From positions 1 to 61,586 of the forward strand of contig DULO01000120.1 of NCBI GenBank assembly GCA_012840345.1: 61,586 bases of DNA, in the 5' to 3' direction. The position numbers and the translations under genes were made by a program. The stretch is from Candidatus Fermentithermobacillaceae bacterium (lineage in GTDB: Bacteria; Bacillota; Sulfobacillia; Fermentithermobacillales; Fermentithermobacillaceae). Positions 5,701 through 21,354 of the stretch are shown piece after piece (within the stretch, counting starts at the first letter, position 1; each line of letters starts with the position of its first letter). Below the pieces are notes generated by a model. The model did not search any database, had not been told where the DNA came from, and was given only the letters and a program-made list of their open reading frames with translations.

Positions 5701-7581
5701 TCAGTCGACCTTTGGCAGGTGCTTTCCGGCCCAGGATATACCTAGCCTGGCCAGGGTGTCTTCAGTCGGGACGCCCCGATCGGTCCATCCTGACTGACGG
5801 TAGTACGCCAGCTTGGCTCGTTCCCATTCCTCCCTGGGTATCCTGGACGTTGAAAGGGGGCCTTCCGGAAGCGCTTCAAAGAACCTGTCGGGAATTGTCT
5901 CGTCTTCGGGAGTCATGCCTTCTCGGAGATTTATGATTCTCGCGAGAGTGTATGCCCTTTCAGCTATCGCCATGATCTCGGCGGTGCCGGTTTTCCAGCC
6001 TGTCACGGCTGTCACCAGGTCAACCACCTGGAAGATGGTCCACGGCATGAAAGTGCATATTACCGCGCAATCGCAGAAGTGGCGGAACTTGGTTATGGTC
6101 CTAAGCAGGGTGACTTTCTCCAGAGAAAGATCGAGAGGAGGCAAAGGTACCGCGCCTACTCCCATCGCCCTGGCGTCATCCGCGCCTTTTCCTTCTTTGG
6201 CGTAGATGATGTCATGCATGTTGTGCTGGTGGTCCGCGCCGGTTATGGATAAGGCGTAGCCCAGACCCAATCCCCATTCTTGCCGGGGGTCGTGCATGGG
6301 GATCTCTTGCTTCCTGCTGTGCATCGCCAAAGAGATGGCCCCTTTGCCGATCTTTTCGGCGGCCCTTACCGATCCCTCCGCCAAGAGGTCACCGATCCCT
6401 TCGCGGCGCACGATCTTTTGCAGGACCTCCAGCATGGCTTCGCCGTTCCCAAACCTGAGGTCGAGGCCATCCGTATCTTCCGGGGTCAATATCCCTTTTT
6501 CGAAGCATTCCATGGCAAATGCTATGGTTACGCCCGCGGAAATGGTGTCAAGCCCGTAGGCGTTGCAGATTTCGTTGGCCTTGCATACGTACCGCACGTC
6601 CCCGATACCGCAAGTTGAGCCGAAAGACCCCAAAGTCTCATACTCGGGACCGCCGTACCTGGGATCGACTGTGAAAGGTTCCTTGACTTCGACCACGCGC
6701 TTGCACCGGATGGGGCATCCGAAGCAGGAGTCGCGATCGATCAGGACCGTCTCGTTCATGGTCTGCCCGGTAATCCCTTGGTATCCTTCGAAGAGGCCTT
6801 GCGAGAAGTTCTTGGTGGGGAGACCGCCCGCCACCTGCTTGTTCATGACCCCTCCGGTGGTTCCAAACTCGTGGAGCCCCCACGAAAGGTCCTTCCAGTT
6901 CCGCATAAACCAGGAACCAAGCTCACGTACCTTATCTTTGTCGGCCAGGAATACCGGTTGGCGACCTCTGGCGGCAACGGCACGCAGCCGCTTCGAACCC
7001 ATCACGGCTCCGATGCCGCTTCGCCCGATGTAGTGGGTAACGTCATTGGCGATGCCCGCGAACCTGACGAGCCGTTCTCCCGCGGGGCCGCACTGGCAGG
7101 TCCTGATCAAGTTGTCGCCGAGTTCCGCACGTATGATGTCCTGGGCTTCGCCGGTGGTTTTTCCCCAGATAGCCGAAGCGTCCCTTATCTCTATCTCCCC
7201 GTCGTGGACCCACAGGTACACAGGGGTATCGGAAGCTGAGGTTATCACGAGGGCATCGAATCCCGCTCTGCGGAGCTCAGGGCCGAAGAAGCCCCCTCCC
7301 TCGCCTACGCCAAAACCTCCCGTAAGGGGAGATATAGCTCCCGCCGCGCTCCTGCCCGTTCCCGGCACGGGCGCCCCGGTAAGCGGGCCGGCGGCTATGA
7401 CCAGCACATTGTCTGGCCCCAGGGGATCTATCCCCGGTTTCGTCAGCCGCAGGAGTTCCCTGGCAATCAGACCGGTGCCTCCGAAATACAGGCGGTAGGT
7501 CAGGGAATCAATGGTCTCTTTTCGGATCTCCCTGGTGCCCAAGTCTATGTATCCTATGGTTCCGGTGAGTTCGTTAGTCAT
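5701..7581 (-). CDS. Aldehyde:ferredoxin oxidoreductase (tungsten/molybdopterin)
   Basis: This AOR-family enzyme oxidises aldehydes to carboxylic acids with ferredoxin, using a bis-pyranopterin tungsten (or molybdenum) centre and one 4Fe-4S cluster. The 626 residues match family length. The N-terminal beta domain contains YFGGTGLIAREL and GPLTGAPVPGTGR, the segment that cradles the pterins. Cluster ligands C286, C289 and C293 (CFGCPIRC) are visible, with further cysteines near the C-terminus (FCDCAVIC) as candidates for the fourth. The start ATG has GGGAGGG in front. The gene heads a minus-strand run with an MFS permease and a patatin-like lipase. It implies an anaerobic, ferredoxin-based metabolism. 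Substrate specificity is not predictable. Confidence 0.93.
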   Translation of the reverse strand: MTNELTGTIGYIDLGTREIRKETIDSLTYRLYFGGTGLIARELLRLTKPGIDPLGPDNVLVIAAGPLTGAPVPGTGRSAAGAISPLTGGFGVGEGGGFFGPELRRAGFDALVITSASDTPVYLWVHDGEIEIRDASAIWGKTTGEAQDIIRAELGDNLIRTCQCGPAGERLVRFAGIANDVTHYIGRSGIGAVMGSKRLRAVAARGRQPVFLADKDKVRELGSWFMRNWKDLSWGLHEFGTTGGVMNKQVAGGLPTKNFSQGLFEGYQGITGQTMNETVLIDRDSCFGCPIRCKRVVEVKEPFTVDPRYGGPEYETLGSFGSTCGIGDVRYVCKANEICNAYGLDTISAGVTIAFAMECFEKGILTPEDTDGLDLRFGNGEAMLEVLQKIVRREGIGDLLAEGSVRAAEKIGKGAISLAMHSRKQEIPMHDPRQEWGLGLGYALSITGADHQHNMHDIIYAKEGKGADDARAMGVGAVPLPPLDLSLEKVTLLRTITKFRHFCDCAVICTFMPWTIFQVVDLVTAVTGWKTGTAEIMAIAERAYTLARIINLREGMTPEDETIPDRFFEALPEGPLSTSRIPREEWERAKLAYYRQSGWTDRGVPTEDTLARLGISWAGKHLPKVD

Positions 7582-11936: not shown

Positions 11937-14900
11937 TCAAAACAACGAGAGCTGATCTCCTTCAGGCAGTCCGTCCAGCACGCCCTCGCTTCTTAGGATT
12001 TCGCATACCTTCTTGCCGAGCCTTGTGCGCTTCCTGAAGTCATCTACCGAGGTAAACTCGCCTTCTTTGCGAGCGGCGACTATGGCCGCGGCCGCTTGCG
12101 CGCCCAGCCCCGGTATAGCGACAAAGGGAGGAATCAGGGTCTTTCCGTCCAGCACGTACTTGGTGGCCTCCGACCGGGTCAACGAAGGCAGGCCGAACTT
12201 GACCCCTCTCTTCTTCATGTCCAGCGCCACTTCCAGCGCCGAGGCCTGGTTCTGTTCTTTGGCCTTAGCCCCCGCCATCCCGTTCACCCGGTCGATAAAC
12301 TTCCGCCATTCATCTTCGCTCTGCCGGATCAAGTCCGTGGTGAGCGCGGAGCCGTGGAAAGTGAAATAGGCGGCCGCGAACGCTTCCGGGTGATGGGCTT
12401 TGAAGTACGCTATGCGGAAAGCCATCGTGACATATGCCGCGGCGTGGGCCTTAGGAAACAGGTAGCTGATCTTGAGGCACGAGCCGATGTACCACTCGGG
12501 GGTCCCCGCTTCCCTCATGATCGCCAGGTCTTCTTCTGAAGGGGCTTTCCCCTTTCGGACTTTCTCGGCTATCCCAAAAGCCACCGCCGGGTCGACGCCC
12601 AGTTTCATAAGGTACTGGAAGATATCCTCCCTGGTCGCGATCACCTGGTCAAGCGTGGCGACGCCTTCCTTGATGAGGTCCCGGGCGTTGTTTGCCCACA
12701 CGTCGGTGCCGTGGGACAAGCCTGATATGCGGATCAAGTCGGCGAAGCAGGTTGGCCGCGTCTCCGTCAGCATGTTGCGGACAAACCGGGTCCCGAACTC
12801 GGGGATGCCCAAGGCATCGTCAGGGTTTTCTCCGGAGAAAAGCTTCATGGTGGCAGGGTCGTCTAGGGGCACGGTCGTCGGGTCAATGCCCGTGAGATCG
12901 TGAAGCATCTTTATGACCGTAGGATCGTCGTGGCCCAGGATGTCGACCTTGACCAGGTGCCCCGAGATGGCGTCGTAGTCAAAATGCGTGGTCATTGCAC
13001 CGGCTTCCCTATCGTCGGCCGGATACTGGACAGGCGTGAAGTCCAAGACGTCCATGCCTTCCGGGATGACCATGACCCCTCCCGGATGCTGTCCCGTGGT
13101 CCTCTTGACGCCCTCAATCCCTATGGAGAGGCGCGTCTCTTCGGCTCTTCGGAGAGTCTTCCCCGTTTCTTCCGCGTAGTGCTTCACGAAGCCGAACGCC
13201 GTTTTGCGAGCGATAGTGCCTATAGTGCCTGCCCGGAAAACGTTTTTCTTGCCCAAGAGCTCTTCGGCGAAGCGGAACATCTCGCCCTGCTCTTCCCCAG
13301 AGAAGTTCAGGTCGATGTCGGGCACCTTCTCCCCCTTGAAGCCCATGAAAGACTCAAACGGTATGTCTTGACCGTCCCTCTTGAGGTCCTCCCCGCATTT
13401 CGGACACTTTCTGGGCGGGAGGTCGAACCCTGAACCGTAAGCCAGTCCCGTCTCGAAATCGCTCCACCTGCACTGCGGGCATACGTAGTGAGGCGTCAGC
13501 GGGTTCACCTCCGTAATCCCGGTGCAAGTGGCCACAAAAGACGAGCCCACAGATCCCCTGGAACCTACGAGGTAACCGTCGGACAGGGATTTCTCCACCA
13601 TGCGCATGGCGATAACGTAGAGCGAAGCGAAACCGTTGCCTATTATGGCTCCTAGTTCCTTTTCAAGCCGCTTTTCGACTATCTCGGGAAGAGGATCCCC
13701 GTAGATCCTCTTGGCGCCTTCAATGGCGGCGTTCCTTAGCGTTTCGTCGGCGCCGGGAAGGGACGGGAAGTATGAGCCTTCCGGGACCGGGCGCAACTCT
13801 TCTATGGAGTCGGCGATGGCTCTGGTGTTTTTCACTACCACTTCCCGCGCTGCTTCGCGGCCCAAGTAAGATGTCGCTTCCTCCAAGAGTTCCGCGGTCG
13901 TCCGCAGGTATACCGGCGTAGGTTTCTCCCCGTCAGCCATTCCTTTGCCTGCCAGCAGCACCGTTCGGTATATGGACTCTTCCGGATCAAGGAAGTGAAC
14001 GTCGCACGTCATCACGCACGGGCGCCCGATTGACTTCGCCAGTTCGTAGATGGTCTTGTTTATCTCCGCCAGCCCATCCCTGTCTTTGACCGCGCCGGAC
14101 TCAATGAGAAAGCCGTTGTTGTCGAGAGGCTGAATCTCAAGGTAATCATAGAAGGAAGCGATCCGCAGAAGTTCTTCCCGTGGCCTCTTATCCAGCACCG
14201 CTCTGTACAACTCTCCTGCTTCGCAAGCGGAACCTATCAGTAATCCTTCCCTTTTGGACGAGAGCAGGGCCCGGGGTATCCTTGGAGTCCTATAGAAGTG
14301 CTCCAGGTGGGATTCTGTGATGATCTCGTAAAGATGCCTGAGCCCCACCCGGTTCTTGGCCAAGATGATAATGTGGAAAGCGTGGCTCTTGGGATCGTCT
14401 TCAACGAGATATCCTTCCACGCCGTAGATAATCTTCACGCCGTGTTTTTTGCCCAAAGAGGCCGCTTCTGGGAAGGACTGGACCACGCCGTGATCGGTGA
14501 TGGCGAGGGCAGGGTATCCCCATTCCTTGGCGCGCCGCACCGCTTTTTCCAGGTCGAGGACGGAGTCCATGGCGCTCATCTTTGTGTGCAGGTGAAGCTC
14601 CACTCTTTTTTCCGGCGCCGGGTCAATCCGGACGTCGGGCTCGCAGAGACAGATGTCGTCGTTGTCAGTGACAACTATCATGGGGTCCCCGTCGAAACGG
14701 TCGACGTCGGGCCTGCCTCTGGCCACTATGGTTACTCCGGGTTCTATGTCTTCCCTCTTGGATTCCTGAAACGAAAGCCTCACTCGCAAGGAGTCAACCA
14801 TGTCGGTGATGACGAAAGTCCCGTCGAACCTGCCTGCCAGATTTTGACGCCAGTTTACCTCGCATACCCGTCCTTTCACCGTCACCTTTCTCTTCTCTCC

Positions 14901-15335
14901 GCCCGTTATCTCGCTGAGAGGGACGGCTTCTTCCTTGGATGGAGGGGCTTTGGGAGCTCTGGAACCCCGCCTCCTCACCGGGTACTTTCCATTGGCTTGG
15001 ACTTCCTTGGTTTCAGGGTCTCTAAAGGGCTTGGAGAGCTCCTCAGGAACTACCCAGCGAACGTTCTCCAGCCCCTGAACCTTCTTTTTGATTTCTTGGC
15101 GCGCCGTGGCAAGCAGCGCCTCCAAGACGCCCTTTTCGTAGGACTTTGCCGCTTTGGCCCATTCTTTCGGATCCGAAGCGTCCACAGAGACTGTCCACAT
15201 GCTTTCCTGGTCCGAAACCTCTATGAAGCGGACCGAAAGGTGACCCAGCAGGTCAGCCCCCAGGACTTCTCCAACTTCAACTATTTGGTTTACTCGAAGG
15301 TCATCTGAAGACGGTGTAACCCTTACGACGCTCAT
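11937..15335 (-). CDS. polC: DNA polymerase III alpha subunit, PolC type, lacking the exonuclease insert
   Basis: This is the replicative polymerase of Gram-positive type. It has an N-terminal domain (1-110), an OB fold (about 143-235), a PHP domain starting at VELHLHTK (about 246) and a palm with PDIDLNFSGE. It also has the zinc-binding pair CPQC/CPKC inside the polymerase part, a C-terminal helix-hairpin-helix region and a terminal clamp-binding QLSLF. Typical PolC is about 1430 residues because a DnaQ-like exonuclease is inserted in PHP. Here residues 310-330 run straight from YLVEDD into the PHP remainder (AFHIIILAKN), and no DxE exonuclease motif appears anywhere. The ATG at 15335 follows GGGGGAT and is preferred to the TTG at 15341. 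1132 residues. Confidence 0.95.
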   Translation of the reverse strand: MSVVRVTPSSDDLRVNQIVEVGEVLGADLLGHLSVRFIEVSDQESMWTVSVDASDPKEWAKAAKSYEKGVLEALLATARQEIKKKVQGLENVRWVVPEELSKPFRDPETKEVQANGKYPVRRRGSRAPKAPPSKEEAVPLSEITGGEKRKVTVKGRVCEVNWRQNLAGRFDGTFVITDMVDSLRVRLSFQESKREDIEPGVTIVARGRPDVDRFDGDPMIVVTDNDDICLCEPDVRIDPAPEKRVELHLHTKMSAMDSVLDLEKAVRRAKEWGYPALAITDHGVVQSFPEAASLGKKHGVKIIYGVEGYLVEDDPKSHAFHIIILAKNRVGLRHLYEIITESHLEHFYRTPRIPRALLSSKREGLLIGSACEAGELYRAVLDKRPREELLRIASFYDYLEIQPLDNNGFLIESGAVKDRDGLAEINKTIYELAKSIGRPCVMTCDVHFLDPEESIYRTVLLAGKGMADGEKPTPVYLRTTAELLEEATSYLGREAAREVVVKNTRAIADSIEELRPVPEGSYFPSLPGADETLRNAAIEGAKRIYGDPLPEIVEKRLEKELGAIIGNGFASLYVIAMRMVEKSLSDGYLVGSRGSVGSSFVATCTGITEVNPLTPHYVCPQCRWSDFETGLAYGSGFDLPPRKCPKCGEDLKRDGQDIPFESFMGFKGEKVPDIDLNFSGEEQGEMFRFAEELLGKKNVFRAGTIGTIARKTAFGFVKHYAEETGKTLRRAEETRLSIGIEGVKRTTGQHPGGVMVIPEGMDVLDFTPVQYPADDREAGAMTTHFDYDAISGHLVKVDILGHDDPTVIKMLHDLTGIDPTTVPLDDPATMKLFSGENPDDALGIPEFGTRFVRNMLTETRPTCFADLIRISGLSHGTDVWANNARDLIKEGVATLDQVIATREDIFQYLMKLGVDPAVAFGIAEKVRKGKAPSEEDLAIMREAGTPEWYIGSCLKISYLFPKAHAAAYVTMAFRIAYFKAHHPEAFAAAYFTFHGSALTTDLIRQSEDEWRKFIDRVNGMAGAKAKEQNQASALEVALDMKKRGVKFGLPSLTRSEATKYVLDGKTLIPPFVAIPGLGAQAAAAIVAARKEGEFTSVDDFRKRTRLGKKVCEILRSEGVLDGLPEGDQLSLF

Positions 15336-15407
15336 TAACAAATCCCCCGCGGCTTTGTGCTGTATCTGTGCTTCGAAAGGCGTATGGGTTTGCCCGTTTA
15401 AGTTCTC

Positions 15408-16496
15408 CTAGGTTTTTCTTCGCTGGATTTCCTCATGTATGAGGTTCATTAGGGCGGATACCATATCCCCGGAACGTACGCTTCCTACTACTTTGCCGTG
15501 GGAGAAGAGTATTCCTCCATCGCGGCCGCAGGCTATGCCGACATCAGCTTCCCTGGCTTCGCCGGGGCCGTTAACCGGACACCCCATTACCGCTATTGTC
15601 ATGGGGATCTTAAGGCCCCGAACCTTCCGGGCGATTTCCTGGGCCACCGGCATCAAGTCCACTTGGGTACGCCCGCAAGTGGGGCAGGATATGACATTGG
15701 GACCGAAGGACGAAACCCCAACGGCCTGCAGGATGTCTTGAGCCGTTCTGACCTCCTCAACGCACGAACCGGTGAGAGAGACCCTTACCGTATCCCCTAT
15801 ACCGATGGTCAAGAGAGAGGCTATTCCGGCCGTGGACTTGATGATGCCGGGGATTCCGGGACCGGCTTCGGTAATGCCGATGTGAAAGGGCCACTTGGTC
15901 TCCTTGGCCATGAGAGCGTATGCCCGTACGGTGTCGGGCACGCTTGACGACTTCAGCGAGAGGACGATGCCTGTGGCCTGGTGATCCTCTAAGAAGTCGA
16001 GGGTCCTCTTGGCGGCCTCTACTATGGCCTCAGGGGTCGGCGAACCGTACCGGGCGATAAGGTCCTTGGGGACAGACCCGCTGTTGACTCCTATCCGGAT
16101 GGCCGCGCCCCGCTCCTTTGCTTTCATCGCCACGGCCAAAAGGTTTTCCGGCCCGCCTATGTTCCCCGGATTCACCCTGACTTTGTCCGCGCCGTTTTCC
16201 AGCGCCATAATGGCAAGCCTGTAGTCATAGTGGATATCGGCAACTATGGGGCATTTGACCTGTCTCTTGATTGAGGCTATGGCTTCCGCGGCTTCCTTGT
16301 CCGGGACCGCTACCCGGACTATATCGGCTCCCGCCTCCACGGCTTCCTGGATTTCCGCGGTCGTCTTCTGAACATCCCGGGTGTCGGTCGTGGTCATGGT
16401 CTGGATGGAAACCGGGCTTTCCCCTCCGATAATGACCTCACCGCACCTAACCGGGGTTGTCTCACGTCGCTTGAAAAGCATGTCCACGGCGTTCAT
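15408..16496 (-). CDS. ispG: 4-hydroxy-3-methylbut-2-en-1-yl diphosphate synthase (flavodoxin/ferredoxin)
   Basis: IspG (GcpE) is the penultimate enzyme of the MEP isoprenoid pathway, a 4Fe-4S protein that reductively opens MEcPP. The 362-residue bacterial short form has an N-terminal TIM barrel (TTDTRDVQKT, DIHYDYRLA, RVNPGN) and a C-terminal cluster domain with CPTCGR and MGCPVNGPGEA supplying the cysteine ligands. The ATG at 16496 is favoured over the TTG at 16505 because GAAAGG would overlap the latter. It follows rseP and dxr, another MEP enzyme, which fits the common arrangement dxr-rseP-ispG. Confidence 0.97.
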   Translation of the reverse strand: MNAVDMLFKRRETTPVRCGEVIIGGESPVSIQTMTTTDTRDVQKTTAEIQEAVEAGADIVRVAVPDKEAAEAIASIKRQVKCPIVADIHYDYRLAIMALENGADKVRVNPGNIGGPENLLAVAMKAKERGAAIRIGVNSGSVPKDLIARYGSPTPEAIVEAAKRTLDFLEDHQATGIVLSLKSSSVPDTVRAYALMAKETKWPFHIGITEAGPGIPGIIKSTAGIASLLTIGIGDTVRVSLTGSCVEEVRTAQDILQAVGVSSFGPNVISCPTCGRTQVDLMPVAQEIARKVRGLKIPMTIAVMGCPVNGPGEAREADVGIACGRDGGILFSHGKVVGSVRSGDMVSALMNLIHEEIQRRKT

Positions 16497-16546
16497 CGCG
16501 GTCAACCTTTCCCAATGTGATGTTCTTCCCGTCCGGCCTAGCCAGC

Positions 16547-17578
16547 TTACCTTACAAGCCTGAGAATATCCTTGAAGGTGATGAACACGAACAAGGCCAT
16601 AAGAAGGAAAAAGCCGAAGAAGTGCACCAGGCCTTCTTTTTCCGGGTCGATGGGTTTGCCTCTTATGGCCTCAATGCCAAAGAAGATGAGCCTGCTGCCG
16701 TCCAGGGCTGGAAAAGGCATAAGGTTAAAGAGGGCCAAGTTGGCGGAGAGGATTCCCACGATGTAGAAGAGCTGCGCCAGTCCTGTGCGCGCGGCTTCGC
16801 CCAATATCTGAGTTATGCCTACCGGTCCCGTTACTTCCGGCGCTACCTTGCCCACGATCATGCCGATGATACCGGTTATCCAGGCGACGCTGACGTGGTA
16901 GGTCTCACTGAAGCCTGATATAAGGCCTTTCAAGAGGCCCACGCGAGTGAGCTGCAAAGTCGGCCTGACGCCTATCACTCCCACCCCGTTCATCTCAATG
17001 GGGGTCATGTTTACCAGAACAGGCTCCCCGTCTCTTTCCACGCCCACTTCGGTGGTTTGGCCGGCTCGGGTCTGGATGATCGCCACCATTTCGTCCCAGG
17101 TATCGACCGGGGTACCCCCAACGGACTGAATCACGTCTCCGGCGAGGAGCCCGGCGGTCTCGGCCGGGTATCCGGGCATCACTTCCAGGATGCGGGTGGT
17201 CGGCGTGTTGATCCCCACGAAGGAGAACACCAAGAAAAAAGCCAAAGACGCCACGAGAAGGTTGAATATCGGTCCCGCGGCGATCACGAAAGCCCGGCGC
17301 CCTGGCGAGAGGCTGCTAAGGATTCTTTCCTTGGGGATGGCTTTATCTTCCTCCCGGTTGGGGCCTTCCTCACCCGCGAACCTGGTGAACCCTCCCACAG
17401 GGATCAAGCGGAGCGTGTATCTTGTCTCCTCTTTCTGTTTCGAGTACAAAACCGGTCCGAATCCGACGGCGAACTCGTGAATGTATACTCCCATGAGCCT
17501 TCCGGCCAGAAAATGTCCGAGTTCGTGAAAAGTTACCAGCACGCCCAAGAGAAACAGGGCAAGAACGACCTGCGCCAA
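16547..17578 (-). CDS. rseP: Site-2 intramembrane metalloprotease RseP/RasP
   Basis: This is a zinc metalloprotease that cuts transmembrane anti-sigma factors and signal-peptide remnants within the membrane. The 343 residues show HELGH in the first helix (18-22), a single PDZ domain (about 120-190, GYPAETAGLLAGDV) and the third zinc ligand motif NLMPFPALDG near the C-terminus. Four transmembrane segments are expected. The start is TTG with GGAGA nine bases upstream, four bases after the dxr stop. One PDZ domain is the Gram-positive form. Confidence 0.95.
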   Translation of the reverse strand: MAQVVLALFLLGVLVTFHELGHFLAGRLMGVYIHEFAVGFGPVLYSKQKEETRYTLRLIPVGGFTRFAGEEGPNREEDKAIPKERILSSLSPGRRAFVIAAGPIFNLLVASLAFFLVFSFVGINTPTTRILEVMPGYPAETAGLLAGDVIQSVGGTPVDTWDEMVAIIQTRAGQTTEVGVERDGEPVLVNMTPIEMNGVGVIGVRPTLQLTRVGLLKGLISGFSETYHVSVAWITGIIGMIVGKVAPEVTGPVGITQILGEAARTGLAQLFYIVGILSANLALFNLMPFPALDGSRLIFFGIEAIRGKPIDPEKEGLVHFFGFFLLMALFVFITFKDILRLVR

Positions 17579-17581
17579 GTA

Positions 17582-18745
17582 TCATCGTCTCCTTAAACTC
17601 ACAAGTTCCATAGTCTTAGCGACGGCCCATTTCCGTTCTTGTTCCAAAACTTCAACGCACGAGGCGTCTCTAGGATGGTATTCTTCCATGACGGCCGACA
17701 AAACCTCGTACATGTCCAAAAAACCTATGCGGCGGGCCAAAAACTCCTGGACAAGCACCTCATCGGCCGCTGACAAGACGCAAGGCGCGGTACCGCCCAT
17801 ACGTCCCGCGCGGTAGCCCAATAATAGAGACGGAAACCTGGCGGTATCGGGTTCTTCAAACGTGAGAGTACCGAAATAGGGCGAAAGAGATTCCACCGTA
17901 CCGGGCACCCTGTCCGGATACGTGAGCCCGTAGGCTATGGCCAAGCGCATATCCGGTCTCGCCAGTTGGGCCTTGGTGGACCCGTCTTTGAAGGTGACCA
18001 TGGAATGAACGATGCTTTGCCTGTGCAAGACCACCTTTATCTGATCGTAGCCAAGCCCGAACAAGTAGTGGGCCTCCATGACCTCCAAGGTCTTGTTGAA
18101 CAGCGTGGCCGAGTCCACGGTGACTTTCTTCCCCATCTTCCAGGTGGGGTGCCTCAACACTTCTTCCGGAGTGACTTCCCTCATCTCTTCCAGGGTCCGG
18201 TCCCTGAGGGCTCCGCCTGAGGCCGTCAACACTACCTCCTGAACATCTCTTCGGAACTCTCCTTGGAGGCACTGAAAGATGGCGGAATGCTCGGAGTCAA
18301 CGGGTATGAAACGGTCCGGACTCGCGGTTATGTACGGGGCGACCAGCTCCCCCGCCGAAACCAAAGCTTCTTTGCCCGCGAAAGCGACGCGTTTTCCGTG
18401 TTCCAGGGAAGAAAGCAAGGGTTTCACGCCGTCGAAGCCTGGTATGGCGTGAAGCACCACGTCTACATCAGCCAACGACGCGGCTTTCTGAACACCCGAG
18501 GCTCCGGCCGCTATCTCCAAGTTTGAAAGCCCGTAGCTATGTTTGGCTTGTTGAGCTTTGGCGGCAGCCTCTTCGTCAGAAAGGGCCAACAGCCTGGCGC
18601 CGAACTCTTTGGCTTGGGAGAGCGCTTCCTCCCAGCCGGACCCCGCGGCCAGCGCCAGCACTTTAAGGTCGGGGTTCTTGCGTATTACCTGGAGCGCCTG
18701 GGTCCCGATGGAACCCGTGGAGCCCAGTATGCTAACTGTCCTCAA
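17582..18745 (-). CDS. dxr: 1-deoxy-D-xylulose 5-phosphate reductoisomerase
   Basis: Dxr makes 2-C-methyl-D-erythritol 4-phosphate, the committed MEP pathway step, with NADPH and a divalent metal. The 387 residues match the family. Visible are the NADPH loop LGSTGSIG (7-14), the conserved AGKEALV and the metal/substrate region with PVDSEHSAIFQ and ASGGALRD. TTG start overlaps the TGA of the preceding permease gene (TTGA), implying translational coupling. It works with ispG two genes downstream. Confidence 0.97.
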   Translation of the reverse strand: MRTVSILGSTGSIGTQALQVIRKNPDLKVLALAAGSGWEEALSQAKEFGARLLALSDEEAAAKAQQAKHSYGLSNLEIAAGASGVQKAASLADVDVVLHAIPGFDGVKPLLSSLEHGKRVAFAGKEALVSAGELVAPYITASPDRFIPVDSEHSAIFQCLQGEFRRDVQEVVLTASGGALRDRTLEEMREVTPEEVLRHPTWKMGKKVTVDSATLFNKTLEVMEAHYLFGLGYDQIKVVLHRQSIVHSMVTFKDGSTKAQLARPDMRLAIAYGLTYPDRVPGTVESLSPYFGTLTFEEPDTARFPSLLLGYRAGRMGGTAPCVLSAADEVLVQEFLARRIGFLDMYEVLSAVMEEYHPRDASCVEVLEQERKWAVAKTMELVSLRRR

Positions 18746-19779
18746 TCTTTTACACCGTCCTCATGAGGGATGACGCCGGAGACCCAGAGCCCCTTAATGA
18801 GGATGGCCGACAGAGGTCCGTAAATGAGCCCCACTGTGCCGAAGACGCGGAAGCCTATGTAAAGCGAGGCCAAAGTGGCCAGGGGATGCAGCCCCATTTC
18901 CCGGCCGACCAAGTGGGTCTGGGCGACCTGCCTTAGCAAGGATACAGCACCGTACAGGACCGATAAGCCCACGGCCACGGCCGGCGATCCCCATATGGCC
19001 TGGTAGAGGATCCACGGGATGTAGACCAGGCCCGGGCCCACCACCGGCAAGATGTCCATGATAGCCAAGAGAATACCCAAGCCCACCGCGTACCGCGACT
19101 CCACGAGCGTTAAGCCGAGAACGTTGATTATCATGGTCAACAGGACCAGGACCGCCTGAGCCCTGAGGAAGCCGGCGACGCCGCCTAGTATGTCCAGCTC
19201 AACGTGCTTAAAGCTTTTGAAAGCCCGAGGGGGCACGACGCTCCGTATGAAAGACCCTATCTTTGCGCGGTCCTTCATCACGAAGTACGTGGACAGTATG
19301 GTGAACAACAGCATCACCAGAAACATCGGGACTCCTCTGACCAGCCCGCTGGCTCCGCTCAACACGCGGGATAGGAGCACATCCAGGCGGGCCCACTGCT
19401 CTTGAAAAGCCTTGGCTAAGGGTTCGGGCAACTGAGACGATATGTCTCCCGCGATTCGGAGAAGTTCCGTGGCGATCCTGTTGAACTCGGCGTAATACTG
19501 GGGCAAGTACCCGTAAAGGGCGGTCAGTTCTTCCACGATCCTGGTGACGGCCCAAGTGATGAGGGATAGCAAGACGGTTACCAGGAGCAGCACGATGATC
19601 AGGGCCGACCGGCCCCTCCCCAGCCTGGTTTTTTTGGCCATGGCGGCGACTAGGGGATCCAGGATGAAAGCCAAGAAAATGCCCAGGGCGAACGGGAGCA
19701 CGTAGCCCATGAGGTAGCGGAAGAACACGAAGACCGCCACAAACGCGATGGTCAAGTAACCAAGAGTCTTTACTGTCAA
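18742..19779 (-). CDS. AI-2E family transporter (UPF0118 permease)
   Basis: This is a 345-residue polytopic membrane protein. It has hydrophobic N-terminal segments, a hydrophilic middle region (about 85-150) and a C-terminal bundle with GLGILLAIMDILPVVGPGLV and the conserved family tail LIYGPLSAILIKGLW. Family members have been implicated in exporting signals or ions, and substrate assignment from name alone is unsafe. Its position between cdsA and dxr, which are usually adjacent in Bacillota, is uncommon. The gene's end overlaps the dxr start, so they are co-translated. Confidence 0.85.
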   Translation of the reverse strand: MTVKTLGYLTIAFVAVFVFFRYLMGYVLPFALGIFLAFILDPLVAAMAKKTRLGRGRSALIIVLLLVTVLLSLITWAVTRIVEELTALYGYLPQYYAEFNRIATELLRIAGDISSQLPEPLAKAFQEQWARLDVLLSRVLSGASGLVRGVPMFLVMLLFTILSTYFVMKDRAKIGSFIRSVVPPRAFKSFKHVELDILGGVAGFLRAQAVLVLLTMIINVLGLTLVESRYAVGLGILLAIMDILPVVGPGLVYIPWILYQAIWGSPAVAVGLSVLYGAVSLLRQVAQTHLVGREMGLHPLATLASLYIGFRVFGTVGLIYGPLSAILIKGLWVSGVIPHEDGVKD

Positions 19780-19796
19780 ATTGCGTACGCCTCCGG

Positions 19797-20582
19797 TTAG
19801 AGACTGGGCAATATAGAGCTAAAGAGGCGAATCAGAAGACCGCCTGCCCCGGTAAACAAAAGACTGTCGAACCTGTCCAGTACTCCTCCGTGTCCAGGGA
19901 TCAAATTACCCGAATCCTTGGCGTTGCAGAACCGCTTCAGCAGGGATTCCGCTAGATCTCCCGATTCTGCCAAGACGCCCAGGATAAGACCGGACCCAAC
20001 CGCGAAAGGCACGGAAAACCCAAGATAAGTCGAGAGGATTCCGCCTGCCGCGCCTGCCGCCAGAACGCCGCATATGGCGCCTTCCCACGACTTTGAGGGG
20101 CTAATCTTGGGAGCCAGTTTGTGCTTTCCGAAAGCGCTCCCGCCCAGATACGCCCCAACGTCGGTGGCCCAAGTAACCAAGAGGACCAATAGCGCCCATT
20201 CCCTGCCGCCTTTTCCCGAGCGGAGCAGGCCCAGGGCTCCCAGGAGTCCTCCCAAGTACATCTGGCCCGAAAGACCGTAGAGGGCCTCGACTACCCCTCC
20301 CTTAAACAAAGACAACACCAGGAAAAACAAGGCTCCTATCAGAAGACCCATCAGGAGAAGCGCCGGTTGCCCCGTATGACCCAAGAGCGCTACGAGCGAT
20401 ATGACGACAGGGAAACTCGCGGGGATCGTGACACCGGCTTGGTGGAGCAGCCTCCTGTACTCCAACGCCCCCAGAAACGATACTGCCAAGAGCAGCGCGG
20501 CGAAGTACTTGCCGCCAAAATACACCGCGAAACCGACGAGAGGGGCAAAAACCATGGATGAAATGGTTCGTTGCAGAAACAA
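19797..20582 (-). CDS. cdsA: Phosphatidate cytidylyltransferase
   Basis: CdsA converts phosphatidic acid and CTP to CDP-diacylglycerol in the membrane, the branch point for phospholipids. The 261-residue protein has seven or so hydrophobic segments and the diagnostic C-terminal signature split into KISPSKSWEGA and DSGNLIPGHGGVLDRFDS, including the metal-binding aspartates. The start is TTG at 20582. It lies 7 bases after the uppS stop, in the classical uppS-cdsA order. Confidence 0.96.
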   Translation of the reverse strand: MFLQRTISSMVFAPLVGFAVYFGGKYFAALLLAVSFLGALEYRRLLHQAGVTIPASFPVVISLVALLGHTGQPALLLMGLLIGALFFLVLSLFKGGVVEALYGLSGQMYLGGLLGALGLLRSGKGGREWALLVLLVTWATDVGAYLGGSAFGKHKLAPKISPSKSWEGAICGVLAAGAAGGILSTYLGFSVPFAVGSGLILGVLAESGDLAESLLKRFCNAKDSGNLIPGHGGVLDRFDSLLFTGAGGLLIRLFSSILPSL

Positions 20583-20589
20583 CAGCCGG

Positions 20590-21354
20590 TCACCCTCTCT
20601 TGTGGCTCACATCACCAAACCGCCGCTCACGCCTTCCGTATTCGACTACCGCCTTGTAAATATCTATAGGGCCGAAATCGGGCCAAAGCACGTCGGTAAA
20701 CACCAACTCGGAATACGCTCCTTGCCACAGAAGGAAGTTTGATATCCTCTGTTCTCCCGACGTGCGCACGATCAGGTCCGGGTCAGGGACGGAAGGGGCA
20801 TAGAGCAACTGGCGAAACTCCTCCTCTCCTACGGAGTCGAGTTCGCCCGGTTTGTACTTCAATGCCAGTTTCTTAGCGGCATCCAGTATCTCCTGCCTGC
20901 CGCCGTAGTTAACGGCCAGGAGCACGGTCAAGTTTCTGCCTTTGGCCGTGTCATTTGCCGCCTTAGACAACGCTTCCACCACAGGAAGGGGCAGATCCCG
21001 CCAACGACCTATGGGCACTATCCGAACGCCTTTTTCCAGAAGCTCGCGGCGGTCTGAGTTGGCGTAATCCAGGATGAGGTTCATGAGGAACTTGACTTCC
21101 TCTTGGGGCCGGCGCCAATTCTCAGTGGAAAAAACATAAAGGGTCACGTACTTGATTCCCAGGTCAAGAAGGGCAGGGAGACAACGCCTCATGGCCTCTA
21201 CGCCTGCCCGGTGTCCTTCATTCCTGCTTAGCCCGCGCCGCTTTGCCCAACGGCCGTTGCCGTCCATTATGAAAGCTATGTGAGACGGGACGCTGCCTGC
21301 CTTAGCCCGCTCTCTCCATTGGATCTCCTCTTGAGTGGGACCAACAGTAGGCAA
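20590..21354 (-). CDS. uppS: Undecaprenyl diphosphate synthase
   Basis: This cis-prenyltransferase makes the C55 lipid carrier for cell-wall synthesis from farnesyl and isopentenyl diphosphate. The 254 residues contain FIMDGNGRWAKRRG with catalytic Asp31, the GHRAGVEA helix, LYVFSTENWRRP, and the C-terminal PDLIVRTSGEQRISNFLLWQ (truncated motif quoted) that binds IPP. It is three bases after frr and seven before cdsA. It belongs to the same isoprenoid/cell-envelope run as dxr and ispG. Confidence 0.97.
   Translation of the reverse strand: MPTVGPTQEEIQWRERAKAGSVPSHIAFIMDGNGRWAKRRGLSRNEGHRAGVEAMRRCLPALLDLGIKYVTLYVFSTENWRRPQEEVKFLMNLILDYANSDRRELLEKGVRIVPIGRWRDLPLPVVEALSKAANDTAKGRNLTVLLAVNYGGRQEILDAAKKLALKYKPGELDSVGEEEFRQLLYAPSVPDPDLIVRTSGEQRISNFLLWQGAYSELVFTDVLWPDFGPIDIYKAVVEYGRRERRFGDVSHKRG

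Follow-up and report, generated by a model that had tools for sequence, protein, structure and literature searches.

The PolC-type DNA polymerase III encoded in the window, which is the whole stretch of 61,586 nucleotides analysed here (contig DULO01000120.1 of a Candidatus Fermentithermobacillaceae bacterium), is the chromosomal PolC of its organism and naturally lacks the 3'-5' exonuclease. It is a further case of the exonuclease-less PolCs that have already been described, here from Candidatus Fermentithermobacillaceae. Judging from sequence comparisons, we lean towards the view that the exonuclease insert was probably excised and that the PHP domain most likely proofreads, with the DnaE1 of the genome as second proofreader. 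The first-pass annotation, which had recognised a PolC devoid of this domain, was correct in its observation and sound in its interpretation, for a kind of enzyme already known. The features discussed below are the following.

11937..15341 including the stop codon, minus strand: polC, PolC-type DNA polymerase III alpha without exonuclease (open reading frame; NF001688 and TIGR01405; 3f2b)
15021..15335, minus strand: N-terminal domain, residues 1-105, one alpha/beta subdomain (AlphaFold2 pLDDT mostly 74-91)
Residues 106-133, minus strand: disordered linker after the N-terminal subdomain (AlphaFold2 pLDDT <50)
14640..14888, minus strand: OB-fold domain, about residues 150-232 (beta strands in the model; 3f2b alignment)
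13986..14600, minus strand: PHP domain, uninterrupted, about residues 246-450 (PF02811, E=1.2e-31)
H248, H250, D257, H282, E307, H321, C371, D445 and H447, minus strand: PHP metal ligands (alignment columns HHDHEHCDH)
14376..14408, minus strand: junction loop LVEDDPKSHAF, residues 310-320, at the exonuclease site of other PolCs (alignment with insert-bearing PolCs)
13395..13481, minus strand: zinc site of four cysteines, C619, C622, C644 and C647 (invariant in alignments A1 and A2)
12940..13319, minus strand: aspartates D673 and D675 (PDIDLNF) and D798 (invariant in alignments A1 and A2)
11940..11954, minus strand: clamp-binding motif QLSLF, residues 1128-1132 (read at the C-terminus; Q1128 and F1132 invariant in A2)
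15408..21354, minus strand: co-directional neighbours ispG, rseP, dxr, a gene for an AI-2E-type permease, cdsA and uppS (Pfam GcpE, Peptidase_M50, DXP_reductoisom, AI-2E_transport, CTP_transf_1 and Prenyltransf)

The open reading frame measures 1134 amino acids from a TTG start and 1132 from the ATG at 15335, from which all residue numbers of domains, ligands and motifs in this list are counted; the span 11937-15335 annotated before is right for the ATG start, while the frame itself reaches 15341. Its product is a complete PolC with N-terminal domain, OB fold, PHP domain, polymerase core, HhH and clamp motif, and it displays the features of the PolC class, namely an OB fold N-terminal to PHP, the zinc cysteines, the HhH and the C-terminal clamp motif. 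Pfam matched PHP (248-404), DNA_pol3_alpha, finger and HHH_6, and the protein passes the cut-offs of both NCBIfam models of PolC, NF001688 (1339 bits, cut-off 873) and TIGR01405 (1236 bits, cut-off 1043). Both of these matches come in two pieces, the main piece beginning at query residue 318/319, just after the junction, and lying on the model side beyond the exonuclease. In the AlphaFold2 model, pLDDT averages 86.7, most blocks of the PHP domain scoring 82-97 and one 76; the closest solved structure is the Geobacillus PolC 3f2b (TM 0.94 of the target), which can be aligned to the protein over 137-1134. Pfam, model, alignments and a reading of the C-terminus together confirm the N-terminal, OB, PHP, polymerase, zinc and QLSLF parts that the annotation had assigned. 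Residues D673, D675 and D798 we take, from what is known of C-family polymerases, to be the catalytic aspartates of the polymerase.

The N-terminus (window positions 14889-15335, minus strand) is shorter by about 90 residues than its counterpart in insert-bearing PolCs, and the model has a single subdomain in it where two are usual, with 149 residues ahead of the OB core versus a median of 237. The shortfall with respect to Bacillus PolC (about 1430 residues), which had been noted alongside the missing exonuclease, is explained by that domain for about 200 of some 300 residues, whereas most of the rest reflects this shorter N-terminus.

The DnaQ-like exonuclease that PolC usually carries inserted in its PHP domain is absent here. 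A Pfam search found no match to RNase_T (PF00929) in the protein even at E<=1, and its PHP sequence continues across the insert site (GVEGYLVEDDPKSHAFHIIILAKN), the two halves of the domain being linked by a loop of 11 residues where insert-bearing PolCs have about 195-215. Alignment with the latter proteins thus bears out the unbroken PHP run noted at first reading, as does the confident AlphaFold2 model of the region. Assembly deletion or frameshift was considered and rejected: the insert is absent from the PolCs examined in family f1 and in its sister family f2 of the same order, which share a junction of 10-11 residues (L009-L023), and one of these relatives (G002) has a single-contig genome.

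Upstream of the gene are uppS, cdsA, dxr, rseP and ispG, the usual chromosomal setting of polC. The source genome is 97.7% complete, its nearest named relatives being MAGs of Candidatus Fermentithermobacillaceae, and we found no second PolC in it; besides PolC, its C-family polymerases comprise a DnaE1, in which all nine PHP ligands are present by reading, and a DnaE2-like protein (L005, contig C60) with N at PHP ligand 8. The presence of a DnaE2-type polymerase in a genome with PolC and DnaE1 is a combination reported as rare (PMC3919608). Elsewhere in the window, a gene for aldehyde ferredoxin oxidoreductase (PF01314 and PF02730) occupies 5701-7581 on the minus strand, and a long co-directional run at 26903-53067, also on the minus strand, resembles a flagellar operon with codY, hslUV, xerC and topA after it, according to the starts of its open reading frames.

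PolCs without the Exo insertion were described in 2013 by Timinskas et al. (PMC3919608) and amount to 6% of PolCs; they belong almost all to Clostridia and Negativicutes, form 16% of those in systems with PolC and DnaE1, and are still classed as PolC. A survey of 2026 attributes three active proofreaders to most Clostridia and takes HHDHEH[C/H]DH as the definition of an active PHP (PMC12926913); besides these two papers, a search of the literature available to us returned nothing more recent on PolCs that naturally lack the exonuclease. The search for the same deletion in related genomes, which had been advised together with the annotation, extends its range beyond family and order: in a phylum-wide sample of 398 genomes, a hand count gives at least about 120 whose PolC aligns across the junction and lies in an open frame that could not accommodate the insert. 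Among them are Moorella, Desulfosporosinus, Anaerovibrio, Selenomonas, Phascolarctobacterium, Syntrophomonadaceae and some Lachnospiraceae. The PolC of the thermophile Moorella thermoacetica (L054), for instance, has no insert. Absence of the exonuclease is common in anaerobic bacteria of Gram-positive type. Genome G394 has two PolCs (L193 and L194), neither with exonuclease, and the exonuclease-less PolC of genome G107 (L158) has a low-complexity stretch of 81 residues at the insert site.

How did these proteins come to lack the domain? Presence and absence of the exonuclease are interleaved across the PolC trees: its state changes 10 times on the tree of the PolC core, with 6 changes forced by well-supported branches, and 8 times on a second PolC tree. 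Repeated loss among PolCs is therefore probable, as far as such trees can tell. A single exonuclease-less clade was rejected by the AU test (p 0.0002). One gain followed by repeated losses is the simplest reading, and some lineages with short loops could be primitively without exonuclease. For the window PolC, the probable origin would be a clean excision of the DnaQ-like insert from a loop of the PHP domain. It is conceivable, if rather doubtful, that the exonuclease was never present in lineages like this one, and that PolC ancestrally had the short loop in its PHP domain; DnaE has no insert at the same site and loops of 9-12 residues are scattered over early-branching lineages, but the interleaving on the trees speaks against such an ancestral lack. 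So does PolC L112 of the MAG Bacillota AS09scLD_55, which has at the exonuclease site an insert of 195 residues from which the DxE motif is gone (ALGTTG), with PHP ligands intact, and which looks like an intermediate of decay. Moreover, the exonuclease domains of PolCs cluster together save for one long DinG branch, which makes several gains at the same site a less likely course than several losses. A DnaE outgroup used to root the PolC tree favours neither gain nor loss: it sits on a very long branch, with about 5 changes per column on either side, and the basal forks stay open. An ancestral lack concerns the origin of the enzyme and is compatible with proofreading by PHP, and its probability is not exclusive of those given to other readings below.

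A PolC without its exonuclease raises the question of how errors are corrected, for which the annotation had listed a separate epsilon, the PHP domain or nothing at all. The PHP domain is the best supported of these options, given that its nine ligands are kept and that no conserved stand-alone epsilon was found among the close relatives examined. Checking the metal ligands of the domain, as had been recommended, found all nine in the window PolC, which thus has the site HHDHEH[CH]DH of PHP-exonuclease polymerases of the Mtb and Taq DnaE type; the full set likewise occurs in each of the 122 exonuclease-less PolCs whose sites are readable, whereas at least one is altered in 18 of 68 insert-bearing PolCs. 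The association between PHP state and exonuclease state (Fisher p 2e-9, row-based) is only suggestive, because the altered sites have about three independent origins, namely the D to N change of Bacillaceae, L031 and L034. Exonuclease activity has been reported for nine-ligand polymerases (Mtb DnaE, Taq DnaE and PolX), and PHP exonuclease activity has been reported absent in the insert-bearing PolC of Geobacillus, which has N at ligand 8 (PMC5636811; PMC3666897). On the model of the mycobacterial and Thermus DnaE, the PHP domain itself would proofread PolC synthesis by means of a full nine-residue, presumably three-metal site at which mispaired primer ends would be degraded; the DnaE1 of the genome, with its complete PHP site, would constitute a second proofreader. 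The simplest account of proofreading in these organisms lies in PHP domains, and error correction would most likely be the work of this older metal-binding domain of the same enzyme. Our chief doubts are that we know of no PolC in which PHP exonuclease activity has been measured, and that the loop beside the PHP site is short. This loop has about 11 residues in the window PolC, compared with 9 in E. coli, the PHP of which is inactive, 18 in Taq and 29 in Mtb (PMC5636811); its length, closer to that of E. coli than to those of Taq or Mtb, counts against proofreading by PHP.

Other explanations have to be weighed against proofreading by the PHP domain. This PolC might not proofread and be a secondary polymerase, leaving the bulk of accurate synthesis to DnaE1 with its complete PHP, as was raised by Timinskas et al. 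for genomes with PolC and DnaE1, some relatives having DnaE1 alone (PMC3919608). Several relatives of the class are indeed without PolC. We nevertheless consider this unlikely, in view of a gene in its normal chromosomal place, of a retained core and clamp motif, and of PHP sites that are complete in every readable exonuclease-less PolC, unlike those of error-prone DnaE2 and most DnaE3. A complete site could also serve stability or the removal of pyrophosphate, roles reported for the PHP of E. coli Pol III; this is very improbable here, for changes of PHP ligands were seen only where a second exonuclease exists, which suggests a nuclease role.

That a separate protein of the DnaQ family proofreads PolC in trans appears quite improbable to us. 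The candidate in the order Fermentithermobacillales would be a DnaQ-DinG fusion without ATPase motifs, located in the source genome G000 at L213:1011-3641 (minus strand, contig C17) and in relatives at L214-L219. Almost all genomes of the family and order have it; every member examined has kept the exonuclease residues (DLETTG, HNxxFD and HRAxDD), and DinG of B. subtilis, which localises near forks, has been put forward as a possible backup for proofreading (PMC12525004). However, deletion of dinG in B. subtilis lowers mutagenesis, the opposite of what a proofreader would entail (PMC12525004), the fusion has no conserved clamp-binding motif, and genomes G003, G025 and G034 combine an exonuclease-less PolC with no RNase_T domain at all. 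The search of the genome for a stand-alone DnaQ and DnaE that had been suggested earlier did return the two DnaE polymerases mentioned above, but the DnaQ-like frames it yielded, of 252 and 120 amino acids, are not conserved in the family; in the single-contig relative G002, the only RNase_T frame is that of the DinG-type fusion. Throughout the order, the fusion keeps its DEDDh exonuclease and four cysteines at the iron-sulphur position, but Walker A, DEAH, SAT and motif VI, all of which class relatives retain, are gone from it. It might act as a nuclease at forks or on RNA; ExoDinG of S. aureus is without helicase activity according to one review. A transfer of the exonuclease from PolC into the fusion is unsupported, as the exonuclease of the latter groups with DinG-type domains. 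The stronger proposition that Fermentithermobacillales have handed replicative proofreading to a DnaQ exonuclease on a dead DinG helicase, serving the exonuclease-less PolC in trans, we find scarcely credible.

The window PolC illustrates that the textbook proofreading domain is not a necessity for a replicative PolC; its absence is common rather than exotic. If PHP does the work, exonuclease-less PolCs would offer a natural test bed for PHP proofreading in PolC, with a bearing on how fidelity is split between PolC and DnaE1, a pairing that has been called experimentally uncharacterised (PMC3919608). Among known systems, the closest are the exonuclease-less PolCs of Clostridia and Negativicutes (PMC3919608), which have the same N-terminal domain, OB fold, PHP, core, HhH and clamp motif, no Exo and a DnaE1 in the genome, the co-occurrence that defines their type and is found here as well. 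The present lineage, Candidatus Fermentithermobacillia, is not named among them, and it differs by the shorter N-terminus of its PolC and by the additional DnaE2-type polymerase of the genome. The PolC of Geobacillus and Bacillus (3f2b) shares the same fold and about 50% identity over the core; the exonuclease was removed by design from the 3f2b construct at the site where the window PolC naturally has none, whereas the natural enzyme possesses this domain and, at PHP ligand 8, an N in place of the D. DnaE1 of Mycobacterium tuberculosis (PMC5636811) shares its nine PHP ligands with the window PolC and likewise has no exonuclease insert, and the same action is proposed for the window PolC; the mycobacterial enzyme combines a DnaE architecture and a loop of 29 residues with proven activity, in contrast to the loop of about 11 residues and the predicted PHP activity of the protein presented here.
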